This document shows positions 29,603 to 44,851 of a DNA stretch of 64,000 nucleotides, piece by piece (position 1 is the first letter of the stretch; each line of letters begins with the position of its first letter). Made by a program: the position numbers and the translations under genes. Under the pieces are notes generated by a model. It was not told where the DNA came from and did no database searches. It worked only from the letters and a program-made list of their open reading frames with translations. This DNA comes from Undibacterium parvum (GTDB lineage Bacteria > Pseudomonadota > Gammaproteobacteria > Burkholderiales > Burkholderiaceae_D): the NCBI RefSeq assembly GCF_003955735.1, contig NZ_CP034464.1, forward strand, positions 1,054,001 through 1,118,000, written 5' to 3'.

Positions 29603-30064
29603 ATGACCACTAATCTCCTCGACGATGCTCAGCAATACGGCATGGATCACAATCTGCCCTACGCCGGTGCTGTCGCGCCGGAGGATGCATGGGCGCTCTT
29701 GCAAGCCGATCACAAAATTATTCTTGTGGACGTACGCACTCATGCTGAGCGCGATTGGGTTGGTCGCGTCAGCATCCCGGAAGCACAGCATCAGGCGGTG
29801 CAGTGGAGTCTGTACCCAGGCGGTGCACCCAACCCCGAATTTATCGCGCAATTGAAGGCAGCGGTGCCGGATACGGATACCGTGATCTTATTTTTATGCC
29901 GCTCGGGTGTGCGTTCACGTCACGGCGCCAAGCTGGCAACGGAACATGGTTACAGCCAATGCTACGATATCTTGCAAGGTTTCGAAGGCGATAAAGACGT
30001 GCACGGCCATCGTAAGACAGTCGGCGGCTGGTGCAGCGCGGCACTGCCTTGGCTGGGTGCTTGA
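29603..30064 (+). CDS. Rhodanese-like sulfurtransferase
   Basis: This 153-residue protein is a single rhodanese domain. LVDVRTHAERDWVGRV is the CH2A-like segment, and the active-site loop is LCRSGVRSRHGA with the nucleophilic Cys at residue 99. Rhodaneses move sulfane sulfur to cyanide or thiol acceptors. The loop CRSGVRS is the common six-residue single-domain type. No signal peptide is present, so it is cytosolic. The start has no strong Shine-Dalgarno site. It is followed by a palindromic repeat and by a convergent transporter gene. Confidence 0.88.
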   Translation: MTTNLLDDAQQYGMDHNLPYAGAVAPEDAWALLQADHKIILVDVRTHAERDWVGRVSIPEAQHQAVQWSLYPGGAPNPEFIAQLKAAVPDTDTVILFLCRSGVRSRHGAKLATEHGYSQCYDILQGFEGDKDVHGHRKTVGGWCSAALPWLGA

Positions 30065-30180
30065 GATTATTCAAGCTAGGCTTAGCGCCGTACGCTGCAC
30101 CTCAGTAGCGCAAGGCAGCTACAAGGACGCGCAGCGGTTTTTTCTAAGCCAGCCAGAAGCCAAATTCAAAATAGACCTAG

Positions 30181-30250
30181 CCCAGCGCGCATATTCCATG
30201 CGCCTTGCAGGCCGGCATGGCTGGGAAGGCGCATGGAATATGCGCGCTGG
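30181..30250. repeat. Dispersed palindromic repeat, copy 1
   Basis: Perfect 23-base inverted arms lie at 30182-30204 and 30228-30250, around a 23-base loop. The core GCGCATATTCCATGCGCC recurs in copies 2 and 3, and with one paired change in copy 4. It sits between the convergent rhodanese and NRAMP genes. Confidence 0.85.
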
Positions 30251-30280
30251 CAGGGGCACCGTAAAATTTTCTTGCAGATC

Positions 30281-31621
30281 TTAAATCCCTATCCAGCTGC
30301 CGATCAATGCAGCAATGCAGGCGACGATGAGTGCAATGCTAATCCAGCCGGCGATCTGAGCAGGCATGCCGCTACGTGCCTCGCCCATAATCCTGACATC
30401 ACGCGCCAGCAATTGCAGCGCGATCACATGCAAAGGTAACAGCACCGCATTGACGACCTGGCTGGTGTAAATCAAAGGGATCAGTGGCAAGCCCGGTAAC
30501 GACACCACGCTGGCAGCAGCCACCGTGAGGCCGACAAAGGCAGCGTAAAAATACTGGAAATGACGCGAATCGAGATCTAGCGAGGCCGGTGCACCTATGC
30601 CCTCGGCGATTGAGTAAGCGGTTGCTATCGGCACGATGGCCGCTGCCAGCAAAGAAGCGCCTAACAAGCCAACCCCAAACAAGACCGTGGCAAACGAGCC
30701 CGCCAGCGGACGCAGCGCCAGCGCGGCATCGCCAGCATCGTTGATGTGGATGCCAGCGCGGTTTAAAGTGGCGGCGCAGGCCACTGCGATTGCCAGTCCG
30801 ATCACGCCGGTCAGTACCGAGCCGATCACCACGTCCACCCTTTCCCAGCGCAAATTGGCGACCGTAATTTTTTTATCGACCGCATACGATTGTATGAAGG
30901 CCAGACCCCAGGGTGCCAGGGTGGTGCCCAAGGTCGCGGCAATCGCGATCCAGCCCAGATTATCGACCGGCATATGCGGCACCACTGAGTTATGCCAGAC
31001 CGCCGACCAATCCGGCGCCGCCAGAATACCATCGATGATGTACAAAGCCAGCGTGGACGAGATCACCAGTAAAACCCGCTCGATACGGTGAAAAGACCCC
31101 AGCACCACCACCAGTGAAATCAGCACGGCAGCCAGCGGTGCGCTAATCCAGCTCGGAATACCGATCAAGGAACCAGCTGCCGAGATACCCGCATACTCTG
31201 CGCAGATGGTGCCGAAGTTGGCAAACAGCAGACCAAGCACCGCGATGTAGCCCCAGCCATGTCCCCAGCGTTCGCGTATCACGCCGACAAAACCCTTGCC
31301 GCTAGCGGCGCCTATGCGCACCGCCATCATGTGAAACTGCACTAGCAAAATGGTCGAAGCCGGTATGATCCACAGCAGGCGATAACCATGATCGGCCCCC
31401 AGCACAGAATAAGTGGTAATACCCGCCGGATCATCGTCCGACAAACCGGCCAATAGGCCGGGGCCCAGCACCGCCAGAAAGGCAGAAAATGCACCTATGC
31501 CTGCGGCCCGAAAACGCGCGAACTGCAAGGCGATGCCGCGTTTGTGATGTGCCACGGCATGCGCAGGTGCGCCTTTGCGCAGACGACTCTGATGGGCTTT
31601 GGAAGTACGTGTATGAGGCAT
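30281..31621 (-). CDS. NRAMP-family divalent metal transporter (divergent clade)
   Basis: The 446-residue inner membrane protein has about 11 hydrophobic helices. GPGLLAGLSDDDPAGITTYS (D62-G67) is the TM1 metal-site region, where canonical MntH has DPGN. TM6 reads GTTLAPWGLAF instead of the canonical A-M-P-H motif, so the metal-coordinating Met is missing. This pattern is shared with NRAMP-related proteins, some of which carry Mg2+, so the substrate may differ from Mn2+/Fe2+ (inference). The N-terminal ~40 residues are basic and His-rich. No regulatory element such as an MntR box was recognised upstream. Confidence 0.85.
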   Translation of the reverse strand: MPHTRTSKAHQSRLRKGAPAHAVAHHKRGIALQFARFRAAGIGAFSAFLAVLGPGLLAGLSDDDPAGITTYSVLGADHGYRLLWIIPASTILLVQFHMMAVRIGAASGKGFVGVIRERWGHGWGYIAVLGLLFANFGTICAEYAGISAAGSLIGIPSWISAPLAAVLISLVVVLGSFHRIERVLLVISSTLALYIIDGILAAPDWSAVWHNSVVPHMPVDNLGWIAIAATLGTTLAPWGLAFIQSYAVDKKITVANLRWERVDVVIGSVLTGVIGLAIAVACAATLNRAGIHINDAGDAALALRPLAGSFATVLFGVGLLGASLLAAAIVPIATAYSIAEGIGAPASLDLDSRHFQYFYAAFVGLTVAAASVVSLPGLPLIPLIYTSQVVNAVLLPLHVIALQLLARDVRIMGEARSGMPAQIAGWISIALIVACIAALIGSWIGI

Positions 31622-31917
31622 GCGGATACCGGTTAGCTAAATTGGGGCGTCTAAAAAAAGCGCCTGCACTTGATCCATGCAGCCAACTCAGCCGCAAGCC
31701 AAGTATAAACAGATTAACAAGTCCAATATCACCGCAAAGGCTTTATACCCGCTAGGCTTGATATAACGCAAAGCGCAGTAGCGCAAACTGCAGATTGTTT
31801 GTGTGCTGCGTATAGGGCAATCAAGCTGGCACCGCTTTGAAAGCGACAAATAGGCACGCGAGGCAGCAATGATTTTTCGAAAAGCGGCGTTTGTCTCAGA
31901 AAAATGTAACGATGAAC

Positions 31918-32769
31918 TCAAGACTGTGATGCATTTTCTACCTGCGGCTGTGCTGAAGTTTTGCGCCGGATGCTACGCATGACAAGATATTGCTTACGAA
32001 ATTCCAGGCCACGCTGTGGCCAATTGCGTGCGTATTCGGTCAAGCTCGCTTGTACAGCGCCAAAATCCTCGCCGTTGACGCGGCAATCCACCGCCAACTT
32101 ATCCTGACTATCACGCGAGACAAACATACGCAGACCCAAAAATTCTTGGCTTTGCAGCAGATCATGCAAAGCCGCCGTGCTTTCAGTAAACAGGCAGCAA
32201 GGACAAAACGGATGCAGCTCTGCTGCGCTGGCCGGCAGTGTCGCCAGATGCGCCACTGGCCCTAGCAATACTTGCCGGTACAGCGATTTGCCATCAGACT
32301 CATCACCGGCCACCACGCTCATTTCTATCACGGTGCAGTCTAAGGGCGTCTCACGAGTCGCGTCGGTCAGGACCACCAAGTCCATTTGCGTCCAGGCGCG
32401 AAACCCTTCAGCGATCGCCGCAGCCTCGCTGACCCCGATCGCATGTTGATATTCAGCGATCCCGTTTGGAAAAAAATCGGGATGCGCGACATACATTTTG
32501 GTGCAAGTGCGCACCCGGCCATCGGCCAAAGTGATGGATTCTATAGGCTCCACCTGCAGTAGCAAGCCACTACTCAGCCTTAAGCCAGTGGCATGCCACG
32601 CGAACTCGATTCCTTCCAGTAGCAAGAGATCAGCCAGCGCCTGCATCAGCGCAGGGTCAGCCACAGGCACAGCAGCTGCTGCCGACGAACTTGCAGCACC
32701 CGCCACAGGCGATTTGGCATTCGCGGAGAGTTTTTTCTTGAAAGAATTAAAAATAGTGATGAGTGACAT
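31918..32769 (-). CDS. Uncharacterised 283-residue protein (possibly DUF6348-like)
   Basis: The N-terminal 40 residues are basic then Ala-rich (AGAASSSAAAAVPVA) and look like a linker. Residues ~45-270 form a compact alpha/beta region with IEFAWHATGLRLSSG, TCTKMYVAHPDFFP and a CPCCLF motif near residue 195 that could bind metal. There is no signal peptide or membrane segment. The order of strands recalls the poorly characterised DUF6348 family, but I hold that loosely. It is separated from the NRAMP gene downstream by ~300 bases that hold nothing I recognise. Confidence 0.6.
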   Translation of the reverse strand: MSLITIFNSFKKKLSANAKSPVAGAASSSAAAAVPVADPALMQALADLLLLEGIEFAWHATGLRLSSGLLLQVEPIESITLADGRVRTCTKMYVAHPDFFPNGIAEYQHAIGVSEAAAIAEGFRAWTQMDLVVLTDATRETPLDCTVIEMSVVAGDESDGKSLYRQVLLGPVAHLATLPASAAELHPFCPCCLFTESTAALHDLLQSQEFLGLRMFVSRDSQDKLAVDCRVNGEDFGAVQASLTEYARNWPQRGLEFRKQYLVMRSIRRKTSAQPQVENASQS

Positions 32770-32937
32770 AAAAAATTGCGCTAAAAAAGAGACGGCACAA
32801 GCAGCAGCGCCAAACAGCGCATTGTACGTTTTTTCAGTCAGTATGGGCGATGCGCATGGCTATGACGATACTGTAAGCTAGCCACCCAGTACAACACCAG
32901 CCTATGTCACACCTAGAGAGTTTTTAAAATAGGCACA

Positions 32938-33010
32938 GGCCCAGCGCGCATATTCCATGCGCCCCGCAGGCCAGGCAAGCCGGAGACCCGCATAGAATAT
33001 GCGCGGCAGG
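32938..33010. repeat. Dispersed palindromic repeat, copy 2
   Basis: The left arm (CCAGCGCGCATATTCCATGC from 32941) matches copy 1 exactly. The right arm (CGCATAGAATATGCGCGG, from 32989) has one substitution and a small insertion. It lies in the 361-base gap between two minus-strand genes; I see nothing else in that gap. Confidence 0.8.
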
Positions 33011-33130
33011 CACGCTGGCATTTGGAGTTTCGACTTTAGACTGATGCGCAAGGAATCAAGCACGTGGAAATTTGAGCAGAGTGAAGCGAGTTTCAAGCTC
33101 ACTTCCCTGCTCTATCTTAGAGCGCCTACT

Positions 33131-34285
33131 TTATTGCTTTTGACCGCTGAAGGTACCTTGCGCTGGCGAGTTGCCGCCCCATTGCCACATACCCATAACA
33201 GCACCGCTTTGCGCGTCGATACTGCCCATGAATTGGGCTGCACCGGCTTTGCCGGCGCCGGTCAAGATAAATTCACCGATCTGGCTAATCGTCCCAGAGA
33301 CGGTAAAGTTGGTTTTGTACTTACTCGACACACCCATGCCTGTCATGGCGCCACTGTTATTGACCATCACGTTGACCGTACCATTATCGTCACCGGTAAA
33401 TTTCACTGCATACATACCACCCAGGCCTGAAGCCGCACCGCCATTATTTGAGCTGGCCAGTGGCGTGTAATTGCTGTTAGCCGAAGTCGCTTCACGCGAA
33501 TTGGTGGCGCGAATAGAGCCTGCTGCATTACGCTTTGAAGAGGCCGAAGTGGCTTGTATGAGTTGCGGTTTATCGCGAATCGCCAGGGCAATTTTATTGA
33601 AGTTATCGAGTAAACTTGCGGCTATCAATTTGCCTTCCGGCGTCTTGCTATAGCCACCAGCGCTGGCCCAGCCCATGCCACCCCAGCCCCAGCCATCGAG
33701 GCTAAAATTCATTTTACTGGCCTGACCTTCGGCACTTGCGACTTGTATCCCTGAGCGCACGTCGGCTAATAACAAAGTCGTTTCCGCTTCCTTAAATTTA
33801 ACCCCGCCAGCCAGGCCGCCCAGAGCACCTAGGGCACCTGGTAAGCGACCAAACAAGCCACCGAGAGCACCATTCATGCCGCCGGTATCTTCCGAGAATT
33901 GGATTGCTGGTGTCATCACAAAATCGGCCGCCTGCAATTGGCCGCCACCGACGTTCGAGCCATCTTGCATTTGCCCGGCAGCTGCCAGCGCACGTTCTTG
34001 CTGCAAATTTTGCATAGCGACGCCACGTTCCACGATCGTAAAGCAGCCCGATTCTTGCGCGATCATGCGCAACATAGTCGATGGCGAACCTAATTTATAG
34101 CGCCCCAGATAAGTGAGTATCTCGCTTTGTGGCTCGGCTATCGCCAGTGTGCCAAAATTGCGATTACATTTTTCTATGGTACCCAGTTCGGCCGCCTTGG
34201 CCACCACAGGTGCGCTAGATAGCAGCAAGGTCGCTGACAACAAGGCCAATTTGCCAGACGAGACTAAGGGAAATAACTGCTTCAT
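33131..34285 (-). CDS. CsgG-like secreted protein with extra C-terminal domain
   Basis: The 384-residue protein starts at ATG 34285 with GGAG upstream and has a signal peptide ending ...VVAKA|A. Residues ~35-235 match the CsgG/curli-assembly fold: TLAIAEPQ, SPSTMLRMIAQESGCFTIVE, MQNLQQERALAAAGQMQDGS and ADFVMTPAIQFSED. The lipobox of true CsgG is absent, so it is probably periplasmic rather than an outer membrane lipoprotein. A Ser/Ala/Asn linker leads to a ~110-residue C-terminal domain rich in Gly and Thr (VKFTGDDNGTVNVMVNNSG...). No curli genes are nearby. The role is unknown. Confidence 0.72.
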   Translation of the reverse strand: MKQLFPLVSSGKLALLSATLLLSSAPVVAKAAELGTIEKCNRNFGTLAIAEPQSEILTYLGRYKLGSPSTMLRMIAQESGCFTIVERGVAMQNLQQERALAAAGQMQDGSNVGGGQLQAADFVMTPAIQFSEDTGGMNGALGGLFGRLPGALGALGGLAGGVKFKEAETTLLLADVRSGIQVASAEGQASKMNFSLDGWGWGGMGWASAGGYSKTPEGKLIAASLLDNFNKIALAIRDKPQLIQATSASSKRNAAGSIRATNSREATSANSNYTPLASSNNGGAASGLGGMYAVKFTGDDNGTVNVMVNNSGAMTGMGVSSKYKTNFTVSGTISQIGEFILTGAGKAGAAQFMGSIDAQSGAVMGMWQWGGNSPAQGTFSGQKQ

Positions 34286-34436
34286 GCGCTCTCCAAAAAT
34301 GCTTATTTATTAATAAAGTGCAGGAGTATAGCGCGAATTTATAGGGAGATTCCCGGGATTTTTCTGATAATGGCTAATTTTGCAAACTATTACACTCTTT
34401 TACACTAAGCTCAGCTAGACATCGTCGGCCTTTGCA

Positions 34437-35009
34437 CTATTTACATTGCCTGAGCAGTTCGTCCGTCAGCAATAATTGAGCATATTCCCCCTGTAAGTTA
34501 CTCAGTGACATGCAATGTATCTGCTCGGCGGTTTGCATTGTTCCTTTGCAGTCTGTACTATCAAACGTAAAACAGGCGTCACTCACTACGGCCACCTTAA
34601 AACCCAGGCAAGCGGCACTGCGCGCACTGGCCTCTACCGAATAATTGGTGGCAACCCCGACCATTGCCAATTGCCCGATACCGCGCCTATGCAGCCACTG
34701 CTCCAAACCGGAATTGCAAAACGCATCGGTGACGTTTTTTTCCATGACATGTTCGCTGGCCAAGGGCGCGAAACGCGGCTGTATCTGAGCCCCCGCTTGC
34801 CCAGGCCAAAACACGGATTCGGGCGAACGTGACATATGCCGCACATGCACGATGCTGCGTCCGGCGGCGCGCCATGCCGCCAGCAAAAGCGCGATATTGT
34901 CTTCCGCCTCAGGCATATTTCTAGGCCCTAAACGCGGTTCCGTCATACCTTGCTGCAAGTCGATGAGGATGAGGGCGGCATTAGCCGCCTGAAACGTGGA
35001 CTGTGTCAT
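34437..35009 (-). CDS. Isochorismatase-like hydrolase with Ser at the nucleophile position
   Basis: From ATG 35009 the product has 190 residues (TTG 35024 is an alternative). ALILIDLQQGMTEP has the catalytic-type Asp (D17) and MEKNVTDAF the Lys (K91). The third triad residue, normally Cys in a 'G..T..CV..TA' motif, is Ser here: GVATNYSVEASARSA (S124). Some isochorismatase-fold subfamilies do carry Ser at this place. The substrate cannot be told. The gene lies downstream of the DUF2804 gene on the same strand with a ~46-nt gap. Confidence 0.78.
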   Translation of the reverse strand: MTQSTFQAANAALILIDLQQGMTEPRLGPRNMPEAEDNIALLLAAWRAAGRSIVHVRHMSRSPESVFWPGQAGAQIQPRFAPLASEHVMEKNVTDAFCNSGLEQWLHRRGIGQLAMVGVATNYSVEASARSAACLGFKVAVVSDACFTFDSTDCKGTMQTAEQIHCMSLSNLQGEYAQLLLTDELLRQCK

Positions 35010-35055
35010 AAAGCTGTGCTTCAAATTTTAAAAAGGGCTTGCGCGAACGAGCACA

Positions 35056-36102
35056 TCACCAGCGTGAAAAATGGTCTTCGGTGACTCCCACCAAATTGGC
35101 TATAGGGCGGCGCGGCGCGTCCTTGCCCGCTTTGACCCAGCCGCTGAAAGTCCCTATCGGTTGCAGATAGCGGCTGGCGGCAATCAACAGATTTTTATTT
35201 TCGCTACGACAGCCTTCAGGCTGAAACTGCAGATCGAGCAAGCCATCCTCGGTATAGATATGCCAGGGCAATAAGGGCTGCTTGGCATCAAATTCAAAAT
35301 GTGCAGCCCCTAGAGAAATAAGCTGCCCATCTAGCCACAAGGCGTTTTCATTATCCCCGAAATAGCCCGCTTGCAGATTGAAGCCCAGCTCCAGATTATG
35401 CGCCGAGGCCCAGCGCCAGGCAGTCTCACGCGCCAGAAAGCCATTACTATGATCGAAACTGGCGATGCCACCGTCCAGTGCAAATTCACGCCCCTTAATC
35501 TGAACGCTGCCGCGCAAAGGCAGGCCAGCCGATTTCACCGTGGCATGCACGTTGCCTCCCTGCACTGGTCCAATCGCGCTTAAAAATGGGGCCGCGGTGC
35601 GTGCATCAAAACTGGCGTCAATTGCGAAATCGCCGCATTGCAGCGTCAGCTGATAAGTCTCGCTAGCGGCCAGATGACGATAATCGATACGATTATTCAG
35701 AAAGCGAAAGCTGCTAGCCGCACCATCGGCTGGATGCGTATTGAGTGTCGCACTCAGGCCAGGCAAGCCATCCCGAGAAAAACTCGCCAGCATGCGTTGC
35801 GCCCGTCGATCAAAGGCATACGCAAAGGCAGTATTGGTCCAACCCACATCGACGATCGCAATGCCGCAAAAAATATCGTCTGTCGCCAGCGCCACATATT
35901 GCCAGTGTTTATGATGGAAGTGCTGCCATAGCCGACTACGTTGATGCGGAGCCGCCAATCCGCGCCAGTCTATCTGCGTCAAAGGGCCAGCATATTTACC
36001 AAAATTAACACTGCCATCGGCAGCCAGCACGCTGCGCGGTGCTGCGGCTAAAGTCAGGTCGGAGTCAGCGGCGCGCGCCACGACTGAGTTTAAAACTGTC
36101 AT
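35056..36102 (-). CDS. DUF2804 family protein
   Basis: The 348-residue protein matches DUF2804 in layout: FGKYAGPLTQIDW near the start, RLWQHFHHKHWQYVALATDD, a GWTNTAFAYAFDR segment and FDHSNGFLARETAWRWASA in the middle, with a PIGTFSGWV segment near the end. The fold is mostly beta-strand and may relate to lipocalin-like AttH domains. No function is established. There is no signal peptide. It may be co-transcribed with the isochorismatase-like gene. Confidence 0.75.
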   Translation of the reverse strand: MTVLNSVVARAADSDLTLAAAPRSVLAADGSVNFGKYAGPLTQIDWRGLAAPHQRSRLWQHFHHKHWQYVALATDDIFCGIAIVDVGWTNTAFAYAFDRRAQRMLASFSRDGLPGLSATLNTHPADGAASSFRFLNNRIDYRHLAASETYQLTLQCGDFAIDASFDARTAAPFLSAIGPVQGGNVHATVKSAGLPLRGSVQIKGREFALDGGIASFDHSNGFLARETAWRWASAHNLELGFNLQAGYFGDNENALWLDGQLISLGAAHFEFDAKQPLLPWHIYTEDGLLDLQFQPEGCRSENKNLLIAASRYLQPIGTFSGWVKAGKDAPRRPIANLVGVTEDHFSRW

Positions 36103-36174
36103 AGAGTCAGAGAGAGTGAAATAGAGTCAAATGCAAAATGGAGTACCAAGTCGCTAAAAATTAAAAACCGGCAG

Positions 36175-36250
36175 GCCCAGTGCGCATATTCCATGCGCCT
36201 TTGCCGAGCATATGGCTGGCAGCCCGCACTGGCTATGCGTCTTGGGCTAG
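36175..36250. repeat. Dispersed palindromic repeat, copy 3 (degenerate right arm)
   Basis: The left arm (GCGCATATTCCATGCGCC at about 36183-36200) matches copy 1 apart from one upstream base. The right arm is decayed: CGCACTGGCTATGCGTCTTG. It lies between the DUF2804 and NIPSNAP genes. Confidence 0.72.
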
Positions 36251-36279
36251 TGCATGGGAACGGGCAAACTTAGATCGAT

Positions 36280-36585
36280 TTATTCAAACACGGGTCGAAA
36301 GAAGGAGCGCTCATAGCTAATGATGCAACGGGTTTTTTCGGCATATTTGAAGGCTTCTATGCAATCGTGATCGAGGAAGGATTTTTCTCTATATTCCTCA
36401 TACAGTGCCAAGGACGGAAAACTGAAGATCGCCAGCGCGATATTGCTGGCACCTTCCGATGGTAGAAAATAACCGTGATGATCACCACCGAATTTCGCCA
36501 CTAAGGGTATCCACATTTTTCCGTAAGTCTCAAATTCCTTGAGTTTATAGGTATCAATCACATAGCGCAGGTAACAGGTAATCAT
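36280..36585 (-). CDS. NIPSNAP family protein
   Basis: This 101-residue protein is a complete dimeric alpha/beta-barrel-like domain. YLRYVIDTYKLKEFETYGKMWIPLV, GYFLPSEGASNIALAIFSF and LALYEEYREKSFLDHDC are the typical NIPSNAP elements: an initial strand, the heme- or ligand-facing region and the helix. The usual small proteins of this family have no settled function. It is a single gene on the minus strand. Confidence 0.8.
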   Translation of the reverse strand: MITCYLRYVIDTYKLKEFETYGKMWIPLVAKFGGDHHGYFLPSEGASNIALAIFSFPSLALYEEYREKSFLDHDCIEAFKYAEKTRCIISYERSFFRPVFE

Positions 36586-36756
36586 AGGTTTTCTTAAAAT
36601 TGTACAAAGTTGTGTTAAACCGCATCAAATAGACAAATAATTAATTTCTGAATTCTACCTAGCATTTGATTTTTAGGGAAATAGTGTGCAATCTGCATGG
36701 TTTGCGCTCTATACTTGCAACTAGATCTTTGACGAATTAAGTATCTGGAGATACAG

Positions 36757-37545
36757 ATGCACACGCCTATCTCGCTCACCTCCCTAAGCGCCAGCATGCT
36801 GGCTCACTTGCAGTTAATCCTTTTGCTTTGCTTACCCCTGAGTGCCGTGCACGCGGCCGAGCGTGAACTCATCATAGGAACTATTGCAGTGAGCCCTTTC
36901 GGCTTTCTTGATAGCACCGGCAAACCTAGCGGTATCATGTATGAAATTAGCAATCGCATCGCCGAAGAAGCGGGCCTACCCTTCAAAAACAACATAACAC
37001 CGTATGCCCGCACGGTGCTTGATTTGGAGTATGGCAATGCCGATGTCATCATCCGATATAGCAATGCTGACTTAACTAAAGTTGCACATCAAGTTATTTC
37101 TGTGCTGGCGCTACCGAGTTTCATCATAGGAAAAAATTCGAGTAGTTTTTTGCGCCTGGCTGACCTGCACGGTAAAAATGTGGGCGTCCTACGCGGTGGC
37201 AATTTTGATGCAAATTTTGCGGCCGATACGGCAATCAAGAAATATGCGGTTAATGATTATGAGCAAGCCTTCAAGATGATGATGGCCGGCCATCTCGATG
37301 CAGTCATAGGCTCAAATATCGGCCTGTATTACACCGCGCAAAAACTAGGTATCGCCACCAGCGCGCTGAGCCCCCCCTTAGTGCTGAGCACACAATATTT
37401 TGTGTTGCACGTCTCAAAAAAGAGCGCCAATGAACCGCTCTTAAAAGACTTAAAGGGCGCGGTGGAGAGGCTGCAAAAACGTGATGCTTTCACGCCCATC
37501 ATCAACAAGTACATGGGATATTATCCGTGGCAACAGCAGAAATAG
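36757..37545 (+). CDS. Periplasmic solute-binding protein, family 3-like
   Basis: The 262-residue protein starts at ATG 36757 with GGAG upstream and has a signal peptide ending AVHA|AERELI. Residues ~35-260 form a type II periplasmic binding fold: IIGTIAVSPFGFLDSTGKPSG, GNADVIIRYSNAD, LADLHGKNVGVLRGG and AGHLDAVIGSN. Such proteins bind amino acids or small acids, but this one stands alone without ABC permease genes. Similar orphan proteins in Oxalobacteraceae are common. It could be an amino acid sensor or part of a distant transporter. Confidence 0.8.
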   Translation: MHTPISLTSLSASMLAHLQLILLLCLPLSAVHAAERELIIGTIAVSPFGFLDSTGKPSGIMYEISNRIAEEAGLPFKNNITPYARTVLDLEYGNADVIIRYSNADLTKVAHQVISVLALPSFIIGKNSSSFLRLADLHGKNVGVLRGGNFDANFAADTAIKKYAVNDYEQAFKMMMAGHLDAVIGSNIGLYYTAQKLGIATSALSPPLVLSTQYFVLHVSKKSANEPLLKDLKGAVERLQKRDAFTPIINKYMGYYPWQQQK

Positions 37546-37762
37546 AGACTGGCTTAATATTCCCTGCCCAGTGAGTGGACAGAGAATTCATTCCTTTTGA
37601 AAACATTGCAAATAAGGCATAAATAAATATTTCCATGCGGAAATAAAATTACTGTAGACAGCTCGCCACAAATGTCCTAGTCTTGAGTTCAGCACGCAAT
37701 TTTCTTGTTTATATTTTCGTCTGAATCCTTTTTATCCTCCACGCAAGCCTAACATTTCACTC

Positions 37763-37796
37763 TGATACAAATTTGGTTTCAGCAGAATTTGTATCA
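37763..37796 (+). promoter_or_regulatory. Inverted repeat upstream of the cyanate cluster
   Basis: TGATACAAATT (37763-37773) and AATTTGTATCA (37786-37796) are perfect 11-base arms with a 12-base gap, 61 nt before the first gene. This may be an operator or a leader hairpin. The rest of the 312-base gap before the cluster shows no sigma-54 or NtrC consensus. Confidence 0.55.
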
Positions 37797-37857
37797 ATGC
37801 CAGCCGTGGATCTCGTTGTTTAATTGTTCCGGTTTTCATACAACAGGAGTCTTCTCC

Positions 37858-39252
37858 ATGTCTGATCAAGTTCCCATTGTCTACGATGCACACGACGCTT
37901 ACGATGCCGAGCGTCCACTCTTAATCGCCTGCGGCTGTGGCGGCAATCATGCCCCACATCAACACGCGGAGCAGCAGAGCAAACAGATCATCAGCACCGA
38001 TGTCATCAGTCGTAATTTTCTGGAAGCCGCCTTAGTCAAGGCACTGTTTCCGCACGAGCCGACCCGAAGAGCGTTCTTAAATGCCGTGGGTCGCAGCACA
38101 GCGATGGCAGCTATCGCCAGCGTCGTGCCACTGGCAAGTATGCAGGCCATGGCGCAAGAAACCAGTGGTAATTTAGAGCGTAAAGAATTGAAAGTGGGCT
38201 TTATCGCCATCACCTGCGCAGCCCCCTTGATCATGGCGGAGCCGCTGGGATTTTATAAAGAGCAAGGCCTCAATGTGCGCCTGGTCAAAACTGCGGGCTG
38301 GGGCATGATACGTGAGAAAGTGATTAAGAAAGAGCATGATGCCTCGCACTTCCTATCGCCTATGCCGCTGGCGATGAGCTTAGGCCTGGGCAATGAGCCC
38401 TTCCCCACTTCCGTCGCCACCATACAAAATAATAACGGCCAAGCCATTACCTTACACTTAAAACACAAAGACAAGCGAGATCCCAAGCAATGGAAAGGAT
38501 TTACCTTGGGCGTGCCCTTTGTCTACAGCATGCATAATTTTTTGCTGCGTTACTACCTGGCTGAATTCGGTATCGATCCGGAGACAGATGTCAAAATCGT
38601 CGCGGTGCCGCCGCCAGAGATGGTCGCCAAATTGACCGATGGCAGCATAGATGGTTTCCTCGGACCGGATCCATTTAACCAGCGTGCGGTATTTGACGGG
38701 GTTGGTTTCATCCATATTTTGTCGAAGGATATCTGGGATGGTCACCCCTGCTGCGCCTTCGGTGCCAGTGATGAATTTATCAAACAAAACCCGAATACCT
38801 TTGCGGCCTTGTTCCGTGCCATCATCAGCGCCTCACTGATCGCCAGCCTATCGACTGATCGTTACGAGATCGCTAAAACCATCGCACCGCAAGCCTATCT
38901 GAATCAACCACTGGAAGTGATCTCGCAGATATTAAGTGGCAAGTTCCCGGACGGTTTGGGTAACACGCGCTCGGTGCCGGATCGCGCTATCTTCAACCCA
39001 GTCCCATGGCAAAGTATGGCGGTATGGATGCTGACGCAGATGAAGCGCTGGGGCTATATCAAGGGCGATGTCGACTATGCGCAATTGGCCAACAAGGTAT
39101 TTTTATTGACTGAGGCAAAACATCATATGGCGCTGGCAGGCTGGAACCCGCCCAAAGGCAACTACCGCAAGCACATCATCATGGGAAAAAGCTTCGACGC
39201 ACAGAAACCGCAGGAGTATCTGAAAAGCTTTGCGATCTCGCATCAAGTCTGA
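37858..39252 (+). CDS. Cyanate/nitrate-type ABC transporter substrate-binding protein, paralogue 1
   Basis: From ATG 37858 (AGGAG upstream) the product has 464 residues. A ~65-residue N-terminal head with CGC and several His (C25, C27, H31-H36) precedes a twin-arginine-like signal, TRRAFLNAVGRSTAMAAIAS. The rest is NrtA/CmpA/CynA-like: LKVGFIAITCAAPLIMAEPLGFYKEQGL (split LKVGFIAITCAAPLIMA, EPLGFYKEQG), GFLGPDPFNQRAVF and GHPCCAFGASDEFI. It binds substrate in the periplasm and delivers it to the permease at 40778. Because cyanase is encoded in the same run, cyanate is the likely substrate. Confidence 0.85.
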   Translation: MSDQVPIVYDAHDAYDAERPLLIACGCGGNHAPHQHAEQQSKQIISTDVISRNFLEAALVKALFPHEPTRRAFLNAVGRSTAMAAIASVVPLASMQAMAQETSGNLERKELKVGFIAITCAAPLIMAEPLGFYKEQGLNVRLVKTAGWGMIREKVIKKEHDASHFLSPMPLAMSLGLGNEPFPTSVATIQNNNGQAITLHLKHKDKRDPKQWKGFTLGVPFVYSMHNFLLRYYLAEFGIDPETDVKIVAVPPPEMVAKLTDGSIDGFLGPDPFNQRAVFDGVGFIHILSKDIWDGHPCCAFGASDEFIKQNPNTFAALFRAIISASLIASLSTDRYEIAKTIAPQAYLNQPLEVISQILSGKFPDGLGNTRSVPDRAIFNPVPWQSMAVWMLTQMKRWGYIKGDVDYAQLANKVFLLTEAKHHMALAGWNPPKGNYRKHIIMGKSFDAQKPQEYLKSFAISHQV

Positions 39253-39374
39253 AGTTCTCAGCCGGTTTGATCAACTCTGCCTTGTTTTAAAAACGCACGG
39301 AAAAAACATATTGGGATTGCGCAATTGCCTCTTGATTGTTACATTATCTACAACTCACTAAGGGAGGCTATTCG

Positions 39375-40769
39375 ATGTCGCTATCCATTTTCAAACCTTA
39401 CGATCCTGAGCACAATAACAGCAGATCCTGCTGCTGCGGGCGGCACTCCAATGCGCAAGAGCATCTGGCCGATGAATTACGCCAACAAGAGCTTGCCAGC
39501 CTGAATAGGGTACGCGACCCTGAAACCCTGAACCAAGATGTGATCGAAGAAGCGCTGATGCGCGCTCTATTTCCGGACGATCATGTGCGTCGTGATTTCC
39601 TGCGCGCCGTTGGCGTGAATACCGCGCGTGCCGCTATTGCCAGTGTCTTACCGATGGCATCGCTACAGGCGATGGCACAAGAAAAAAAAGGCAGTATCGA
39701 AAAGAAGGATTTAAAAGTCGGCTTTATCGCCATCACTTGCGCCGCCCCCCTGATCATGGCTGACCCTCTGGGTTTCTATAAAAAACAGGGACTCAATGTC
39801 TCCCTTCACAAGACCGCAGGCTGGGCCTTGATACGCGACAAGATGGTCAACAAGGAATTCGATGCCTCGCATTTTTTGTCGCCTATGCCGCTGGCGATGT
39901 CTATGGGCTTGGGTACTAATCCCACACAAATGCGGATCGCCACCATACAAAACATCAACGGCCAGGCGATCACCTTGCATGTCAAACACAAGGACAAACG
40001 CGACCCGCGGCAATGGAAGGGCTTCAAACTGGCGATACCCTTTGAATATTCCATGCACAATTTTCTGCTGCGCTATTACCTGGCCGAACACGGTTTAGAT
40101 CCAGATAAAGATGTGCAATTACGCGTCACGCCGCCACCAGAGATGGTGGCCAATCTGCGTGCCGGAAATATCGATGGTTTCCTCGGTCCCGATCCTTTTA
40201 ACCAACGCGCAGTCTATGATGAAGTGGGATTTATCCACATCTTGTCGAAAGAGATCTGGGATGGTCATCCTTGCTGCGCATTTGGCATGTCGGACGACTT
40301 CGTCAAACAAAATCCAAATACCTTTGCCGCACTTTACCGTGCGGTCTTAAATGCGGCCGCCATGGCGCATGACTCTGCGCATCGCTCGCTGGTAGCCAAA
40401 GTGATTGCTCCGGTTGCTTATCTGAATCAACCTGAAACCGTGGTCGAGCAAGTGCTGACAGGGCGTTATGCCGATGGTTTGGGTAACATCAAAAACGTAC
40501 CGAACCGCGCTGACTTCGATCCCCTGCCTTGGTACTCTATGGGCGTATGGATACTGAGCCAGATGAAGCGCTGGGGCTATATCAAAGGCGAGGTCGATTA
40601 CAAGACGATCACAGAAAAAATTTTCCTGCTCACTGATGCCAAGAAATACATGAAGGAATTAGGGCAAACCAGCCCTGAATCTGGCTACAAAAAATTTAAG
40701 ATTATGGGTAAAGAATTCGATGCCAACAGCGCGGATACCTATGTCAATAGTTTTACCATCAAACGATAA
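39375..40769 (+). CDS. Cyanate/nitrate-type ABC transporter substrate-binding protein, paralogue 2
   Basis: From ATG 39375 (GGGAGG upstream) this has exactly 464 residues, the same length as the protein encoded just before it, and is similar along its whole length, so the pair arose by tandem duplication. The head carries SCCCGRH (C19-C21, H24). The signal is VRRDFLRAVGVNTARAAIAS. Ligand-site segments GFLGPDPFNQRAVYDEVGF and HPCCAFGMSDDFV are kept in both. Differences concentrate in the head and the C-terminal lobe, so the two may differ in affinity or substrate. It is followed by the permease after 8 nt. Confidence 0.85.
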   Translation: MSLSIFKPYDPEHNNSRSCCCGRHSNAQEHLADELRQQELASLNRVRDPETLNQDVIEEALMRALFPDDHVRRDFLRAVGVNTARAAIASVLPMASLQAMAQEKKGSIEKKDLKVGFIAITCAAPLIMADPLGFYKKQGLNVSLHKTAGWALIRDKMVNKEFDASHFLSPMPLAMSMGLGTNPTQMRIATIQNINGQAITLHVKHKDKRDPRQWKGFKLAIPFEYSMHNFLLRYYLAEHGLDPDKDVQLRVTPPPEMVANLRAGNIDGFLGPDPFNQRAVYDEVGFIHILSKEIWDGHPCCAFGMSDDFVKQNPNTFAALYRAVLNAAAMAHDSAHRSLVAKVIAPVAYLNQPETVVEQVLTGRYADGLGNIKNVPNRADFDPLPWYSMGVWILSQMKRWGYIKGEVDYKTITEKIFLLTDAKKYMKELGQTSPESGYKKFKIMGKEFDANSADTYVNSFTIKR

Positions 40770-40777
40770 GCTAGGCG

Positions 40778-41647
40778 ATGGCTAATCATTTGGGTCTGCG
40801 TGCCGCCTTAATCTCGCTGCTAATATTTTTGCTGTTTCTGGCAGGCTGGCATTTTGCCACCTTGCCGCCCACGACTACGTCAGCAGCAACTGTTGCGCCT
40901 CAAACGCAACAAGACGAGGACTACGCCAAACTAATGGGAAAAAGTAAGGAGAGCGAGAGCAAAGTAACAGGGTTTCCAAATCCGGCACAAATGGGGCTGG
41001 CGATGCGCAAACATTTGTCTGATCCATTTTACGATAATGGCCCCAACGACAAGGGCATAGGCATACAACTAGGCTATTCGCTGGCGCGGGTTGGGTTGGG
41101 ATTTTCGATTGCCGCTTTAGTCGCAATCCCACTTGGCTTTGTGCTTGGCATGTCGCCGCTGATGCAGCGCGCACTCAATCCATTTATACAAATTCTTAAG
41201 CCTATCTCGCCTCTGGCATGGATGCCGTTGGCGCTGTACACCATTAAGGACTCGTCTATCTCGGGCGTGTTTGTGATTTTCATCTGCTCGATCTGGCCTA
41301 TGCTACTCAATACCTCGTTTGGTGTGGCAGCGGTAAGACGCGAATGGATCAACGTCGCCAGAACCCTGGAAGTGTCAGCACTACGCAAAGCCCTGCTGGT
41401 GATACTGCCAGCCGCCGCACCGACTATTTTGACCGGCATGCGCATCTCTATGGGAATCGCCTGGCTAGTCATCGTCGCTGCCGAGATGTTGGTCGGTGGC
41501 ACCGGGATAGGTTATTTCGTCTGGAATGAATGGAATAACCTGTCGCTGACCAGCGTCATGTTTGCGATCCTATTGATAGGCGTGGTCGGGATGTTGCTCG
41601 ATCTGATCTTCGCCCGTCTGCAACAGTTTGTCAGCTATGTTGACTGA
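40778..41647 (+). CDS. ABC transporter permease, NrtB/CynB-like
   Basis: The 289-residue inner membrane protein has an N-terminal TM ([15 protein letters not shown]), a periplasmic stretch of ~75 residues, and five further TMs. The binding-protein-dependent permease motif is in [19 protein letters not shown]...[12 protein letters not shown], where the EAA loop contacts the ATPase. Family members carry nitrate, bicarbonate, taurine or cyanate. The gene sits directly between the binding proteins and the ATPase, with an 11-nt overlap at its end. Confidence 0.88.
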
Positions 41648-42590
41648 ACCTTGCATCATGGAAACCGCTTTTTTAAATGTGAAATCTTTGGCAAAACGCT
41701 TTGAGTCTGAGGACTCATCGGTATTTTACGATGTCAGTTTCGGCATAGAAAAAGGCGAATTCATTTGCATCATCGGCCACTCCGGCTGCGGCAAAACCAC
41801 CATACTCAATTTGCTAGCCGGGCTGGATAGCGCGACCGCCGGCAGCATCACGATGGATGGCAAAGAAATCTCCGGACCGAGTTTGGACCGGGGCGTGGTA
41901 TTTCAGGGACATGCGCTGATGCCCTGGCTGAGCGTCTTGCAAAACGTTGCCTTCGCAGTCAAATCGCGCTGGCCAAATTACAGCAAAGCCGAGGTCACAA
42001 CCCAGGCGATGCGCTACCTGAAGATGGTTGGTTTATTGGGTGCTGAACACAAAAAACCATCAGAATTATCCGGTGGCATGAAACAGCGCGTAGGAATAGC
42101 ACGTGCTTTTTCTATAGAGCCGAAAATGCTTTTGCTCGATGAGCCCTTTGGCGCACTCGACGCGCTGACGCGTGGTGTGATCCAGGATGAATTGCTGAAA
42201 ATTTGCGCGGCCACACGTCAAACCGTATTCATGGTTACCCATGATGTGGATGAAGCGATTTTGCTGGCTGACCGCATCCTGCTGATGTCGAATGGTCCGC
42301 ATGCACGCATCGCCGAGATCGTCGTCAATACCATGCCCAAAAATCGTACTCGCGCCACCATGCATCACGATCCGCAGTTCTACCGCATACGCAATCACAT
42401 GGTTGATTTTCTGGTTAACCGTTCACGCCGGATACAAGAGCAGACTGTCAGCGCACGCCACACCGCCAGTGATGAAGACACGCGGATAGTCAGTCCCGGC
42501 TTGGAGGTAGGCGCAAGCTCCGAAGAACCGAACACGGCAACTAGCCTTGAACAACGCAATCAAAACTGGCGCAATGCACCGCAACTTTAA
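41637..42590 (+). CDS. ABC transporter ATP-binding protein, NrtD/CynD-like
   Basis: I take ATG 41637, overlapping the permease stop; ATG 41658 is also possible and neither has a clear ribosome site. Walker A is GHSGCGKTT, the Q-loop lies in [12 protein letters not shown], the signature is [14 protein letters not shown], Walker B is [11 protein letters not shown] and the H-loop is VTHDVDEA. The C-terminal ~65 residues are polar and variable. It energises uptake through the permease encoded at 40778. The family place and neighbourhood point to cyanate or nitrate. Confidence 0.88.
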
Positions 42591-42654
42591 TAATGCAACA
42601 CCCTTTCAGTCTTGCAGTTTTTTGTCTACCCCCACCACTTAAGGAGAAACACTC

Positions 42655-43098
42655 ATGGATAGAAATCAAGTCAGCGTCAAAATACTCTCTGCCAAGGTTG
42701 CGCGAAAAATGCGCTGGAGCGAGATTGCTGAAAAAATGGGTAAGAGCAAGGAATGGACAACCGCCGCACTCTTGGGTCAAATGAGCCTCGATGAACATCA
42801 GGCCGAGATAGCGCAAAATTTGTTCTCGTTGACCGCCGAAGAAACCGCCTGGTTACAAATTGTGCCCTACAAAGGTTCATTGCCCACGGCAGTTCCTACC
42901 GATCCACTGATTTACCGCTGGTACGAAATCGTCAATGTCTATGGCTCTACCATCAAGGAACTGATCCATGAAGAATTCGGTGATGGCATCATGAGCGCGA
43001 TCGATTTTTCTATGGATATCACGCGTGAACCAGATCCAAAAGGTGATAGGGTCAAGGTCCTGTTAAGCGGAAAATTTTTGCCTTACAAATCGTATTAA
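42655..43098 (+). CDS. cynS: Cyanate hydratase (cyanase)
   Basis: The 147-residue protein is a full-length cyanase: an N-terminal helical domain (ILSAKVARKMRWSEIAEKMG) and the C-terminal catalytic domain. Arg88, Glu91 and Ser114 (in DPLIYRWYEIVNVYG and FGDGIMSAIDF) keep the spacing of the E. coli triad Arg96, Glu99 and Ser122. It turns cyanate and bicarbonate into ammonia and CO2 as a cytosolic decamer. The start follows AAGGAG. It is the last gene after the transporter, ~64 nt after the ATPase. No cynT carbonic anhydrase or cynR regulator is next to it. Confidence 0.95.
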   Translation: MDRNQVSVKILSAKVARKMRWSEIAEKMGKSKEWTTAALLGQMSLDEHQAEIAQNLFSLTAEETAWLQIVPYKGSLPTAVPTDPLIYRWYEIVNVYGSTIKELIHEEFGDGIMSAIDFSMDITREPDPKGDRVKVLLSGKFLPYKSY

Positions 43099-43139
43099 GG
43101 CCGCACCTCGGCGCCCCCCCTCAGCCCGCTTTAGGCAAT

Positions 43140-43171
43140 GCCGTAGTAGCGATCAGCATCTCTGCTACGGC
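43140..43171 (+). terminator. Hairpin after cynS, terminator-like without U-tract
   Basis: GCCGTAG and CTACGGC, extended by AG/CT, form a ~10-bp stem around a 12-base loop, 41 nt past the cynS stop. No T-run follows. Confidence 0.4.
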
Positions 43172-43293
43172 GAACTATCCGTCTCTTGTGAAGCTTGCTA
43201 TGCACGCCAAAAACCGGGGCAAGCTATACTCCATAAATTGGTCACGCAAAGTGCAGATTAGCTGCGCAAAGCAATCACTCTCAGGGGCGCCTT

Positions 43294-44664
43294 ATGCAAA
43301 ATATACAACACGAATTTCAGTACGATCTCTTAGTCATCGGTGGTGGCAGTGGCGGGGTACGCGCGGCACGCATGGCAGCCCAGCGCGGAGCCCGCGTAGC
43401 CTTGGTCGAGAGCGGTGCACTAGGTGGCACCTGCGTCAATGTAGGCTGCATTCCGAAAAAACTGTATAGCTATGCCGCCCATTACGCTGAAGCCTTTGAA
43501 GAGGCGCATGGCTATGGCTGGAGCATGGCAGAAAAACCGCGCCTCGACTGGGAACGATTGAAGGCCAATCGCGCCACTGAAATCAGCCGGCTAAACGGCA
43601 TTTATCAAAACCTGTTGAGCAATGCTGGGGTAACGATCATTGCAGGCTGGGCGCAATTGATTGACGCCAATACGGTACAGGTCAATGCTCAAAGCTACAG
43701 CGCCAATAAACTCCTGATCGCCACTGGCGGCACACCGATGCTACCTGAAATTTCTGGCAAAGAATTCATATTGAGCTCAGATCAGATCTTCGATATCAGC
43801 CCTTTCCCGCAGCGGCTGCTGGTAGTCGGCGGCGGCTATATCGCCTGCGAATTCGCCTCGATTTTCAACGGACTCGGTGCACAGGTCACACAGGTCTATC
43901 GTGGCGAACAGGTATTACGCGGCTTTGATGAAGACGTACGTCACTTTCTAGCAAACGAAGTGAGGAAGGCTGGTGTAGATCTGCGCTTGAACGCAGATGT
44001 CGCCACTATCGAGCGCCAGTCAGATGGTCTGCAGATCACACTCAAAGATGGCACTAATATGACGGTCGATGCAGTCTTGTACGCCACCGGTCGCGTGCCT
44101 AAAGTGAGCAATCTAGGACTGGAAAATGCGGCCATCAAACAAAGTTCCAGCGGTGCCATCATCGTTGATCAAAACTATCAAAGTTCAGCGCCCTCGATTT
44201 ACGCACTCGGTGATGTTACGGCACGCATACAACTAACCCCGGTGGCGCTGGGCGAAGCGATGCAACTGGTCGACCATCTATTTGGCGACGGCAGCAAAAA
44301 AATGGACTATGAGCTGATTCCTACTGCCGTATTTACCCATCCGAATATCGCCACGGTAGGGTATAGCGAGTCCGATGCGCGTGCCCAATTTAGTAAGATC
44401 CGCGTCTATCGCAGTGAGTTCAAGGCGCTCAAACATACCTTAAGCGGCAGCACCGAACGCACCCTGATGAAGCTGGTTGTAGACGATGCCAGCGACAGAG
44501 TGGTAGGTCTGCACATGGTGGGGGCCGACGCCGGTGAAATAGTACAAGGCTTTGCAGTCGCCATGAAGGCAGGCGCTACCAAGGCGCTATTCGACAGCAC
44601 CATAGGCATACACCCCACCGCCGCTGAAGAATTTGTCACCATGCGGGTGGCAGTAGGCGAATAG
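43294..44664 (+). CDS. gor: Glutathione-disulfide reductase
   Basis: This 456-residue flavoprotein has the FAD motif LLVIGGGSGGVRAARMAA, the redox-active disulfide in GGTCVNVGCIPKK (C47, C52), an NADPH Rossmann motif VVGGGYIACEFASIF with Arg at VYRGEQVLRGF, as expected for NADPH use, and the dimer-interface active-site HPTAAEEF with catalytic His. It reduces oxidised glutathione in the cytosol. The start is preceded by AGGGG. It is a single gene, followed by the fourth palindromic repeat and then by ohrR-ohr, so a redox-defence theme is visible. Confidence 0.93.
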   Translation: MQNIQHEFQYDLLVIGGGSGGVRAARMAAQRGARVALVESGALGGTCVNVGCIPKKLYSYAAHYAEAFEEAHGYGWSMAEKPRLDWERLKANRATEISRLNGIYQNLLSNAGVTIIAGWAQLIDANTVQVNAQSYSANKLLIATGGTPMLPEISGKEFILSSDQIFDISPFPQRLLVVGGGYIACEFASIFNGLGAQVTQVYRGEQVLRGFDEDVRHFLANEVRKAGVDLRLNADVATIERQSDGLQITLKDGTNMTVDAVLYATGRVPKVSNLGLENAAIKQSSSGAIIVDQNYQSSAPSIYALGDVTARIQLTPVALGEAMQLVDHLFGDGSKKMDYELIPTAVFTHPNIATVGYSESDARAQFSKIRVYRSEFKALKHTLSGSTERTLMKLVVDDASDRVVGLHMVGADAGEIVQGFAVAMKAGATKALFDSTIGIHPTAAEEFVTMRVAVGE

Positions 44665-44696
44665 CAAGATCTCTTGCAGCAATCTGAAATTGAGCA

Positions 44697-44771
44697 AGCC
44701 CAGCGCGCATATCCCATGCGGCTTTCCGGCCTGCCTGGCCTGCAGCCCGCATGGGATATGCGCGTTGGGCT
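44697..44771. repeat. Dispersed palindromic repeat, copy 4
   Basis: The arms 44697-44721 and 44747-44771 pair over 25 bases with one G-T pair. Compared with copy 1, the core has ATCCC instead of ATTCC on the left and GGGAT instead of GGAAT on the right, so the stem is kept by a paired change. It lies between gor and ohrR. Confidence 0.85.
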
Positions 44772-44851
44772 AGGCAGCTAAAAGAAGATTTGATTAACTG
44801 GTCTGCAGGCCTGATAATCCGCCTCATATACCTAGATAAACAGCTGCCTCC

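Follow-up and report, generated by a model that had tools for sequence, protein, structure and literature searches.

A REPIN-like palindromic doublet in Undibacterium parvum that stands apart from the RAYT-REP family

Introduction

ERIC, RU and NEMIS are palindromic, intergenic miniature inverted-repeat transposable elements (MITEs) of about 100-130 bp without a transposase of their own. REPINs, the hairpin-forming doublets of repetitive extragenic palindromic (REP) sequences described in Pseudomonas fluorescens, carry two invariant 16-mers at a fixed distance, with compensatory changes common (PMC3116915). The bacterial interspersed mosaic elements (BIMEs) of Escherichia coli join two inverse palindromic units by a linker, and GTAG is crucial for TnpA-REP cleavage (PMC8266576). 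REP-associated tyrosine transposases (RAYTs) are described as having, in every case, an inverted pair of REPs around them (PMC2817692), and palindromic repeats tagged with GTAG or CGTC form dimers of small palindromes, mostly located where the neighbouring genes converge or run in the same direction (PMC3733652). Here we describe a palindromic element of about 109 bp that occurs four times in a 64,000-nucleotide stretch of Undibacterium parvum (the window; NZ_CP034464.1, positions 1,054,001 to 1,118,000) and several hundred times in the host genome. It is REPIN-like in build and placement, yet two tested features, the tag and the bracketing transposase gene, exclude it from the RAYT-REP family.

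The element shares with REPINs the inverted conserved 16-mers, fixed spacing, variable loop, high copy number, extragenic location and compensatory changes. It differs in having no GTAG-type tag, no cognate RAYT at the loci checked, and conserved sequence that runs 25 bp beyond the arms to AT-rich ends. With the GTAG- and CGTC-tagged repeats it has the dimeric palindromes and the gene arrangement in common, but neither tag within 40 bp of an arm (counts are given below). Like a BIME it consists of two inverse palindromic units and a linker, whereas its loop is near-fixed in length, GTAG is lacking, and copies mostly lie hundreds of bp or more from each other rather than in tandem. ERIC, RU and NEMIS resemble it in size, palindromic form and intergenic place, a likeness drawn by description only; RU sizes are given in PMC2759123. 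No report of the element in Undibacterium was recognised in the literature covered, mainly non-subscription papers, and the excerpts pairing 'Undibacterium' with 'palindromic repeat' used the term only in the sense of clustered regularly interspaced short palindromic repeats (PMC8552646, PMC12981111, PMC7922066).

Copy number and anatomy

An earlier note, made by a model from the window alone, had described four copies of a family with REP- or MITE-like behaviour and proposed a whole-genome search. The host genome (G000) is one contig of 4,910,324 bases. Copy 1 of the window, used as the query, gave at least 80 matches in it (the best 40 of 347 candidates were scored). The arm, at up to one mismatch, was found 261 times forward and 271 times in reverse; the reversed pattern gave 0 and 1, and chance is therefore excluded. 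A generic frame, CGCA-N5-CATGCG followed by the loop and the inverse (up to two mismatches), matched 303 times with a 27-nt loop and 93 times with a 28-nt loop, with 0 in the control. The host thus holds several hundred dispersed copies, and the REP- or MITE-like character is borne out by copy number, build and placement.

Anatomy was determined from 1.664 Mb of the host (the window and 80 further stretches), which held 145 copies at up to four mismatches: 111 with arm starts 43 bp apart (the main type) and 34 with a spacing of 44, these being the only two spacings scanned. The 80 stretches were not random. Sixty were evenly spaced (two of them moved to include Y1_Tnp genes, and the grid point at the window skipped), 16 filled one 440-kb comparison, and four, at 2.38, 2.58, 3.22 and 3.58 Mb, were picked for visible copies. 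As the scans tolerated up to four mismatches in the arm frame, conservation within that frame is partly ascertained.

The element is a palindrome of about 109 bp in which two inverted 16-bp arms start 43 bp apart. The arm frame is CGCA-N6-ATGCG, with ATGCG nearly invariant. From the outside in, the layers are an AT-rich block of 10 bp, a variable GC-rich segment, the arm and a loop of 27-28 nt; the information stops sharply 25 bp outside either arm. Left and right half profiles were nearly alike, so that the element has no direction. When spacings of 42-45 were tried, 43 was found in 81 copies and 44 in 13; when 41-46 were tried on part of the data, 85 copies had 43, 24 had 44 and three had 41. 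Spacing outliers in the congener G119 were two copies one shorter and one copy one longer. Median pairwise identity of main-type copies over the 109 bp was 54% (both orientations counted for each pair). The copies at 4577898 and 4579408 are 85% identical within the element only, between unrelated flanks. At short range, positions were more weakly linked across the centre than inside one half, but this did not hold at 15-30 bp, and for that reason no exchange of halves is claimed.

The copies in the window

All four copies of the earlier note are present where it placed them, and the arm matches in the window at up to one mismatch belong to those four alone. The full limits below were taken from the information profile of the 111 main-type copies.

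Copy 1: 30162-30270, no strand, arms 30187-30202 and 30230-30245; 109 bp, with rhodanese and Nramp genes convergent around it
Copy 2: 32921-33029, no strand, arms 32946-32961 and 32989-33004; 3′ of a CsgG-like gene and 5′ of a DUF6348 gene, both on the minus strand
Copy 3: 36157-36265, no strand, arms 36182-36197 and 36225-36240; right arm with four mismatches, stop of a NIPSNAP-domain gene 14 bp before it
Copy 4: 44680-44788, no strand, arms 44705-44720 and 44748-44763; both arms of the ATCCC variant, stop of a disulphide-reductase-type gene 15 bp before it

The four were said to lie outside genes, and all lie beyond Pfam-supported genes, each beside a gene 3′ end; copy 1 is 10 bp from the Nramp stop and copy 2 is 101 bp from the CsgG-like stop. 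An open reading frame (ORF) at 29907-30284 (125 aa) that overlaps copy 1 is taken to be spurious. The arms of copy 1 do pair perfectly as claimed, over 25 base pairs (30182-30206 with 30226-30250) rather than 23. The word 'decayed', applied to the right arms of copies 2 and 3, suits copy 3 far better, since copy 2 has only one mismatch to the arm consensus and copy 3 has four. Of 13 inverted repeats found in the window at gaps no larger than 60, copies 4 and 1 ranked first and second and copy 2 ninth, while copy 3 was absent; folding z-scores were −7.4 for copy 1, −6.4 for copy 4, −2.2 for copy 2 and −1.2 for copy 3. No Rfam family reached its gathering score within the window, in line with the note's failure to recognise a named family. 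Copy 1 had weaker Rfam matches at E up to 1, mostly microRNA hairpins, all under their own gathering scores.

Position relative to genes

Placement was scored against a crude longest-ORF gene set. Outside called ORFs lay 100 of the 111 main-type copies (five at stretch ends, unclassified), compared with 19% of random points; the other 11 fell within crude ORFs, some of which clearly exist only through repeats. The 95 classified copies were divided into 33 in convergent, 51 in tandem and 11 in divergent places, where 16.6, 55.2 and 23.3 were expected by intergenic length (p = 1e-5). Of the 51 copies at tandem places, 37 were closer to the upstream stop than to the next start (p = 0.0018; median 26 bp). 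Overall, copies are mostly intergenic and near stops, and convergent pairs are favoured.

Copies shared with a related genome

A stretch of the host was compared with part of the Undibacterium genome G318. The mosaic of G318 was traced in a single 400-kb stretch of a single assembly and with a single 8-kb query.

G000:C1:4.26-4.70 Mb against G318:C1:0.40-0.80 Mb (L147-L166, L167-L182 and others): comparison of 440 kb with 400 kb

The aligned background was mostly about 70-85% identical. From it stood out 13 collinear blocks that are 98.5-100% identical; the longest reaches 43 kb, and together they make up 143.6 kb, about a third of the stretch. They reflect either recent large-scale homologous replacement between the species or an assembly effect. 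In the frame scan, all nine 43-spaced copies in the 400 kb of G318 lay in blocks, and the host had 11 more outside blocks. A looser scan added one degenerate and one doubtful 43-spaced copy to the G318 background; most of its 17 matches outside blocks were chance-like and in coding sequence. As the well-formed main-type copies of G318 in this stretch are confined to blocks, they were very probably acquired with imported DNA. The 44-spaced type is present in the background of G318 itself, once at an orthologous site.

A role as a DNA-uptake signal was unsupported: nine of 19 main-type copies lay in imported blocks, with 6.2 expected by length (binomial p = 0.22). Block ends were not significantly nearer to copies, either by median distance (P = 0.059) or by the count at 150 bp or less (two of 25, P = 0.077). 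One G000/G119 pair with the copy in the host only differed by 87 bp, a single case. Copy 3 of the window lies inside 35740-37600, a run of 1,861 bases that G318 shares at 100% identity as far as the query extends; next to it the window either has no match in G318 or matches it at about 75-80%, so that a block junction crosses the region.

Range across genomes

A 57-mer pattern close to the host's own variant was scanned at up to three mismatches over 392 genomes of the family. It matched 245 times in G000, 119 in G368, 60 in G318 and four in G119, that is, in four of 43 Undibacterium genomes, with 0 in the control and none in the 349 genomes of other genera. Counts for the generic frame (27-/28-nt loop) were 303/93 in G000, 240/48 in G119, 175/70 in G368, 94/34 in G318, 5/54 in G085, 10/7 in G348 and 3/2 in G327, with 0-2 in the remaining 36 Undibacterium genomes, several of these chance-like. 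Seven of the 43 therefore hold several to hundreds of copies, and the range is restricted and patchy, inside one genus, in a small Undibacterium clade.

A covariance model, run with stricter filters over 145 genomes of the family (the best 26 candidates per genome), matched eight at E up to 1e-4, five of them Undibacterium. Among these five were G063, with three weaker places (6 strand-wise matches), and G104, with four (7). The other three genomes, from different genera, had one or two weak candidate matches each. Distant relatives were seen at L266, L269 and L271 (G063, G104); their stems are long and perfect or nearly so, and ATGCG is kept while CGCA is replaced on both arms. An exact scan of 84,980 species genomes, a collection that may omit records near the host's, returned 11 stretches, all from one Undibacterium metagenome assembly; the plasmid, phage and viral collections held no match.

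Arm covariation and folding

In copy 4 the earlier note had pointed to a paired change, T to C on the left arm and A to G on the right. Both changes are literally there, and their pairing is a coincidence. At that position 94 copies comprised 46 TT, 18 CT, 16 TC, 6 CC and 8 others, with about 6 CC expected, and in 110 copies the arms agreed in 61, where swapped partners averaged 58.2 and reached 61 in 555 of 2000 swaps. The arms vary independently at this site, and the change was rejected as structural evidence.

Covariation was found elsewhere, in the whole six-base core and in arm differences between species. Core positions matched those of their own partner in 503 of 660 cases in the host (swaps, 447.5; 0/2000 as good) and in 172 of 282 in G119 (swaps, 148.6; 2/2000 as good), the latter from 47 rows in which one copy was entered twice and one or two rows are possibly chance. 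The commonest N6 was TATTCC in the host and CTATCC in G119. The base before CGCA was, on both arms, G in 71 of 110 host copies, A in 26 of 32 G119 copies and C in 11 of 14 G085 copies, these 14 being best matches rather than a sample.

In an alignment on the stated stem of 28 copies from five species, hand-picked for balance and a length of 109 bases, 71 cells were double-changed (shuffled, 31.0; 0/500; slid controls, 8-24). A second, of 48 copies from two species (a random draw plus the window copies), gave 77 (shuffled, 50.4; 0/500; slid controls, 15-33), and its number of pairs with any double change (10) was not above shuffles (398/500). Such double changes can be produced by subfamily ancestry, arm-to-arm correction or one protein reading both arms, as well as by selection for pairing.

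Whole main-type copies folded no better than chimeras built from other copies' halves (−50.4 against −51.2 kcal/mol, p = 0.21, 110 copies), and no gain was seen in G119 (p = 0.28) or in 44-spaced copies (p = 0.13). In the host the arms alone folded better than chimeras (p = 8e-4) and the loops worse (p = 6e-5). The structured RNA offered by the earlier note is thus not favoured, although the arms alone do fold better. In 43-spaced copies the two halves of the loop matched one another below expectation (lowest z, at a single position, −4.2), a pattern that would suit avoidance of a fully palindromic centre.

Interpretation

The element is best read as a non-autonomous, REPIN-like palindromic element spread by an enzyme acting in trans, to which we give a probability of roughly 55%. 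We infer its mobility. The doublet would be the copying unit, probably copied via a single-stranded DNA hairpin formed by both arms, and the enzyme would read both arms, which would explain why the arms change jointly between species. Insertion behind stop codons would be harmless or mildly useful, which may be why new copies survive mainly there. A second route would be the import of chromosome blocks by homologous recombination, with copies carried along; this route is well supported in one species pair.

Several results weigh against this reading. No RAYT bracketed by element copies was found at 30 Y1_Tnp loci, three from the host and 27 from ten congeners, inspected mostly over 1.5 kb per side; the transposase search was for Y1_Tnp only, and members escaping it would be overlooked. 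Y1_Tnp genes also occur in genomes almost without the element by the frame pattern (G132, G063, G104, G187). At fixed offsets up to 40 bp outside the arm, GTAG was seen in at most 3, GTGG in 3 and GGAG in 4 of 220 half-elements, and CGTC in at most 2 of 220 at any fixed offset. The target-site duplication of DDE-type MITEs was not convincingly seen (111 copies, symmetric boundaries 13-39 bp, best z 3.0 among all tried). The outer segments did not covary (720/2000 swaps as good), and within species the base before CGCA did not either (71 matches in the host, 76.9 expected). All 13 copies compared in near-identical G000/G318 blocks were present in both genomes, so no recent insertion was seen, and no empty site was found in the diverged intergenic DNA of this pair, which is too different or differs in gene content. 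Of three orthologous sites flagged as shared in the loose scan, two hold copies in diverged G318 background, a clear one with 44 spacing and a degenerate one of the main type, and the third is doubtful; such copies could be explained by function or by slow vertical descent as readily as by mobility.

The earlier note had proposed testing for a link to a RAYT gene, and such a link was not supported: with the defining tag and the bracketing RAYT both lacking, membership of the RAYT-REP family was rejected, even though the element is a high-copy intergenic palindrome built as an inverted doublet of conserved ~16-mers whose spacing is fixed and whose spacer can form a hairpin. That a host RAYT nevertheless mobilises it in trans without GTAG is very unlikely. 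The REPIN-like architecture and the three Y1_Tnp genes of the host, two of which we take to be YafM-like, would suit such a scheme, but both YafM-like genes are bracketed by their own, different GTAG palindromes, and GTAG is the motif crucial for cleavage noted in the Introduction. Those palindromes are GTAGGCTGGGAT... and GTAGGGTGGGCA... (L062:1250-2000 and L063:1250-1930); an additional GTAG palindrome, GTAGGGTGCGCCATGCGCACC, lies near 1725850 of G000:C1. The element occurs at six of the 30 loci, on one side only each time, and one of these loci has two copies; one such copy stands about 300 bp from a gene with its own GTAG palindrome and another amid GTAG repeats. Integron attC sites have invariant AAC/GTT in their R boxes and occur in cassette arrays. 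Arrays of attC were rejected: at position −2, 41 of the 111 left halves have A and 36 have G, and genes in the inspected copy clusters are of mixed orientation.

Two explanations without mobility bear on the same data. A functional 3′-end module kept by the host, whose hairpin would protect mRNA ends or stop transcription in both directions, is unlikely. It would account for the nearness of tandem copies to the upstream stop, the two-fold enrichment of convergent and depletion of divergent pairs, the very stable folds of copies 1 and 4 and the AT-rich block on either side, and 61 of 217 strand-wise foldings have at least five T in an 8-nt window beginning within 12 nt of the stem. Yet only 13 of the 217 have at least five T in the 8 nt right after the stem, on which ground canonical intrinsic terminators were rejected for nearly all copies; pairing at outer stem positions does not exceed what the column composition would give, folding of copies 2 and 3 is only modest, and REPs in general are placed alike, between convergent and same-direction genes (PMC3733652). 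Quite unlikely is a double site for a nucleoid or chromosome-organising DNA-binding protein with species-specific preference, in which each arm is a CGCA-N7-TGCG dyad and the dyads lie about four helical turns apart. The near-strict spacing of 43 or 44, the near-invariance of ATGCG beside freely varying neighbours (in part a product of the scan frame), the interchangeability of halves in folding tests and the joint shift of arms between species all accord with it, as do the main-type loops, which pair worse with their own half than with others', so that what is kept is something other than a perfect hairpin. Against it stand the tie to gene ends, the range among congeners from hundreds of copies to none, and the N6 matching within an element, which independent dyads do not need; a candidate protein was neither sought nor named.

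Returning to the doublet as a copied unit, a more specific proposal is tentative and rather unlikely: a non-RAYT enzyme may copy it, or a host protein keep it, through a code made of the six-base core and the preceding base, rewritten genome-wide in both arms per species, so that each Undibacterium species would have its own dialect. A species-specific code would make candidate proteins traceable, since congeners rich in the element can be set against those free of it. REPINs are known to live as dependents of RAYT genes. A family of equal abundance and the same build, in a host whose two YafM-like RAYTs are both bracketed by other palindromes, offers a clean case in which to seek a second way to spread or keep such elements.

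A second dispersed repeat

A repeat of about 400 bp, roughly 75-91% identical between places, is also dispersed in the host, and the palindrome often stands on one or both of its borders. It was seen in G000:C1 near 698180, at 1726050-1727304 and 2126931-2127443, at 2364663, and at 2603619-2604774 and 2610633-2611725.

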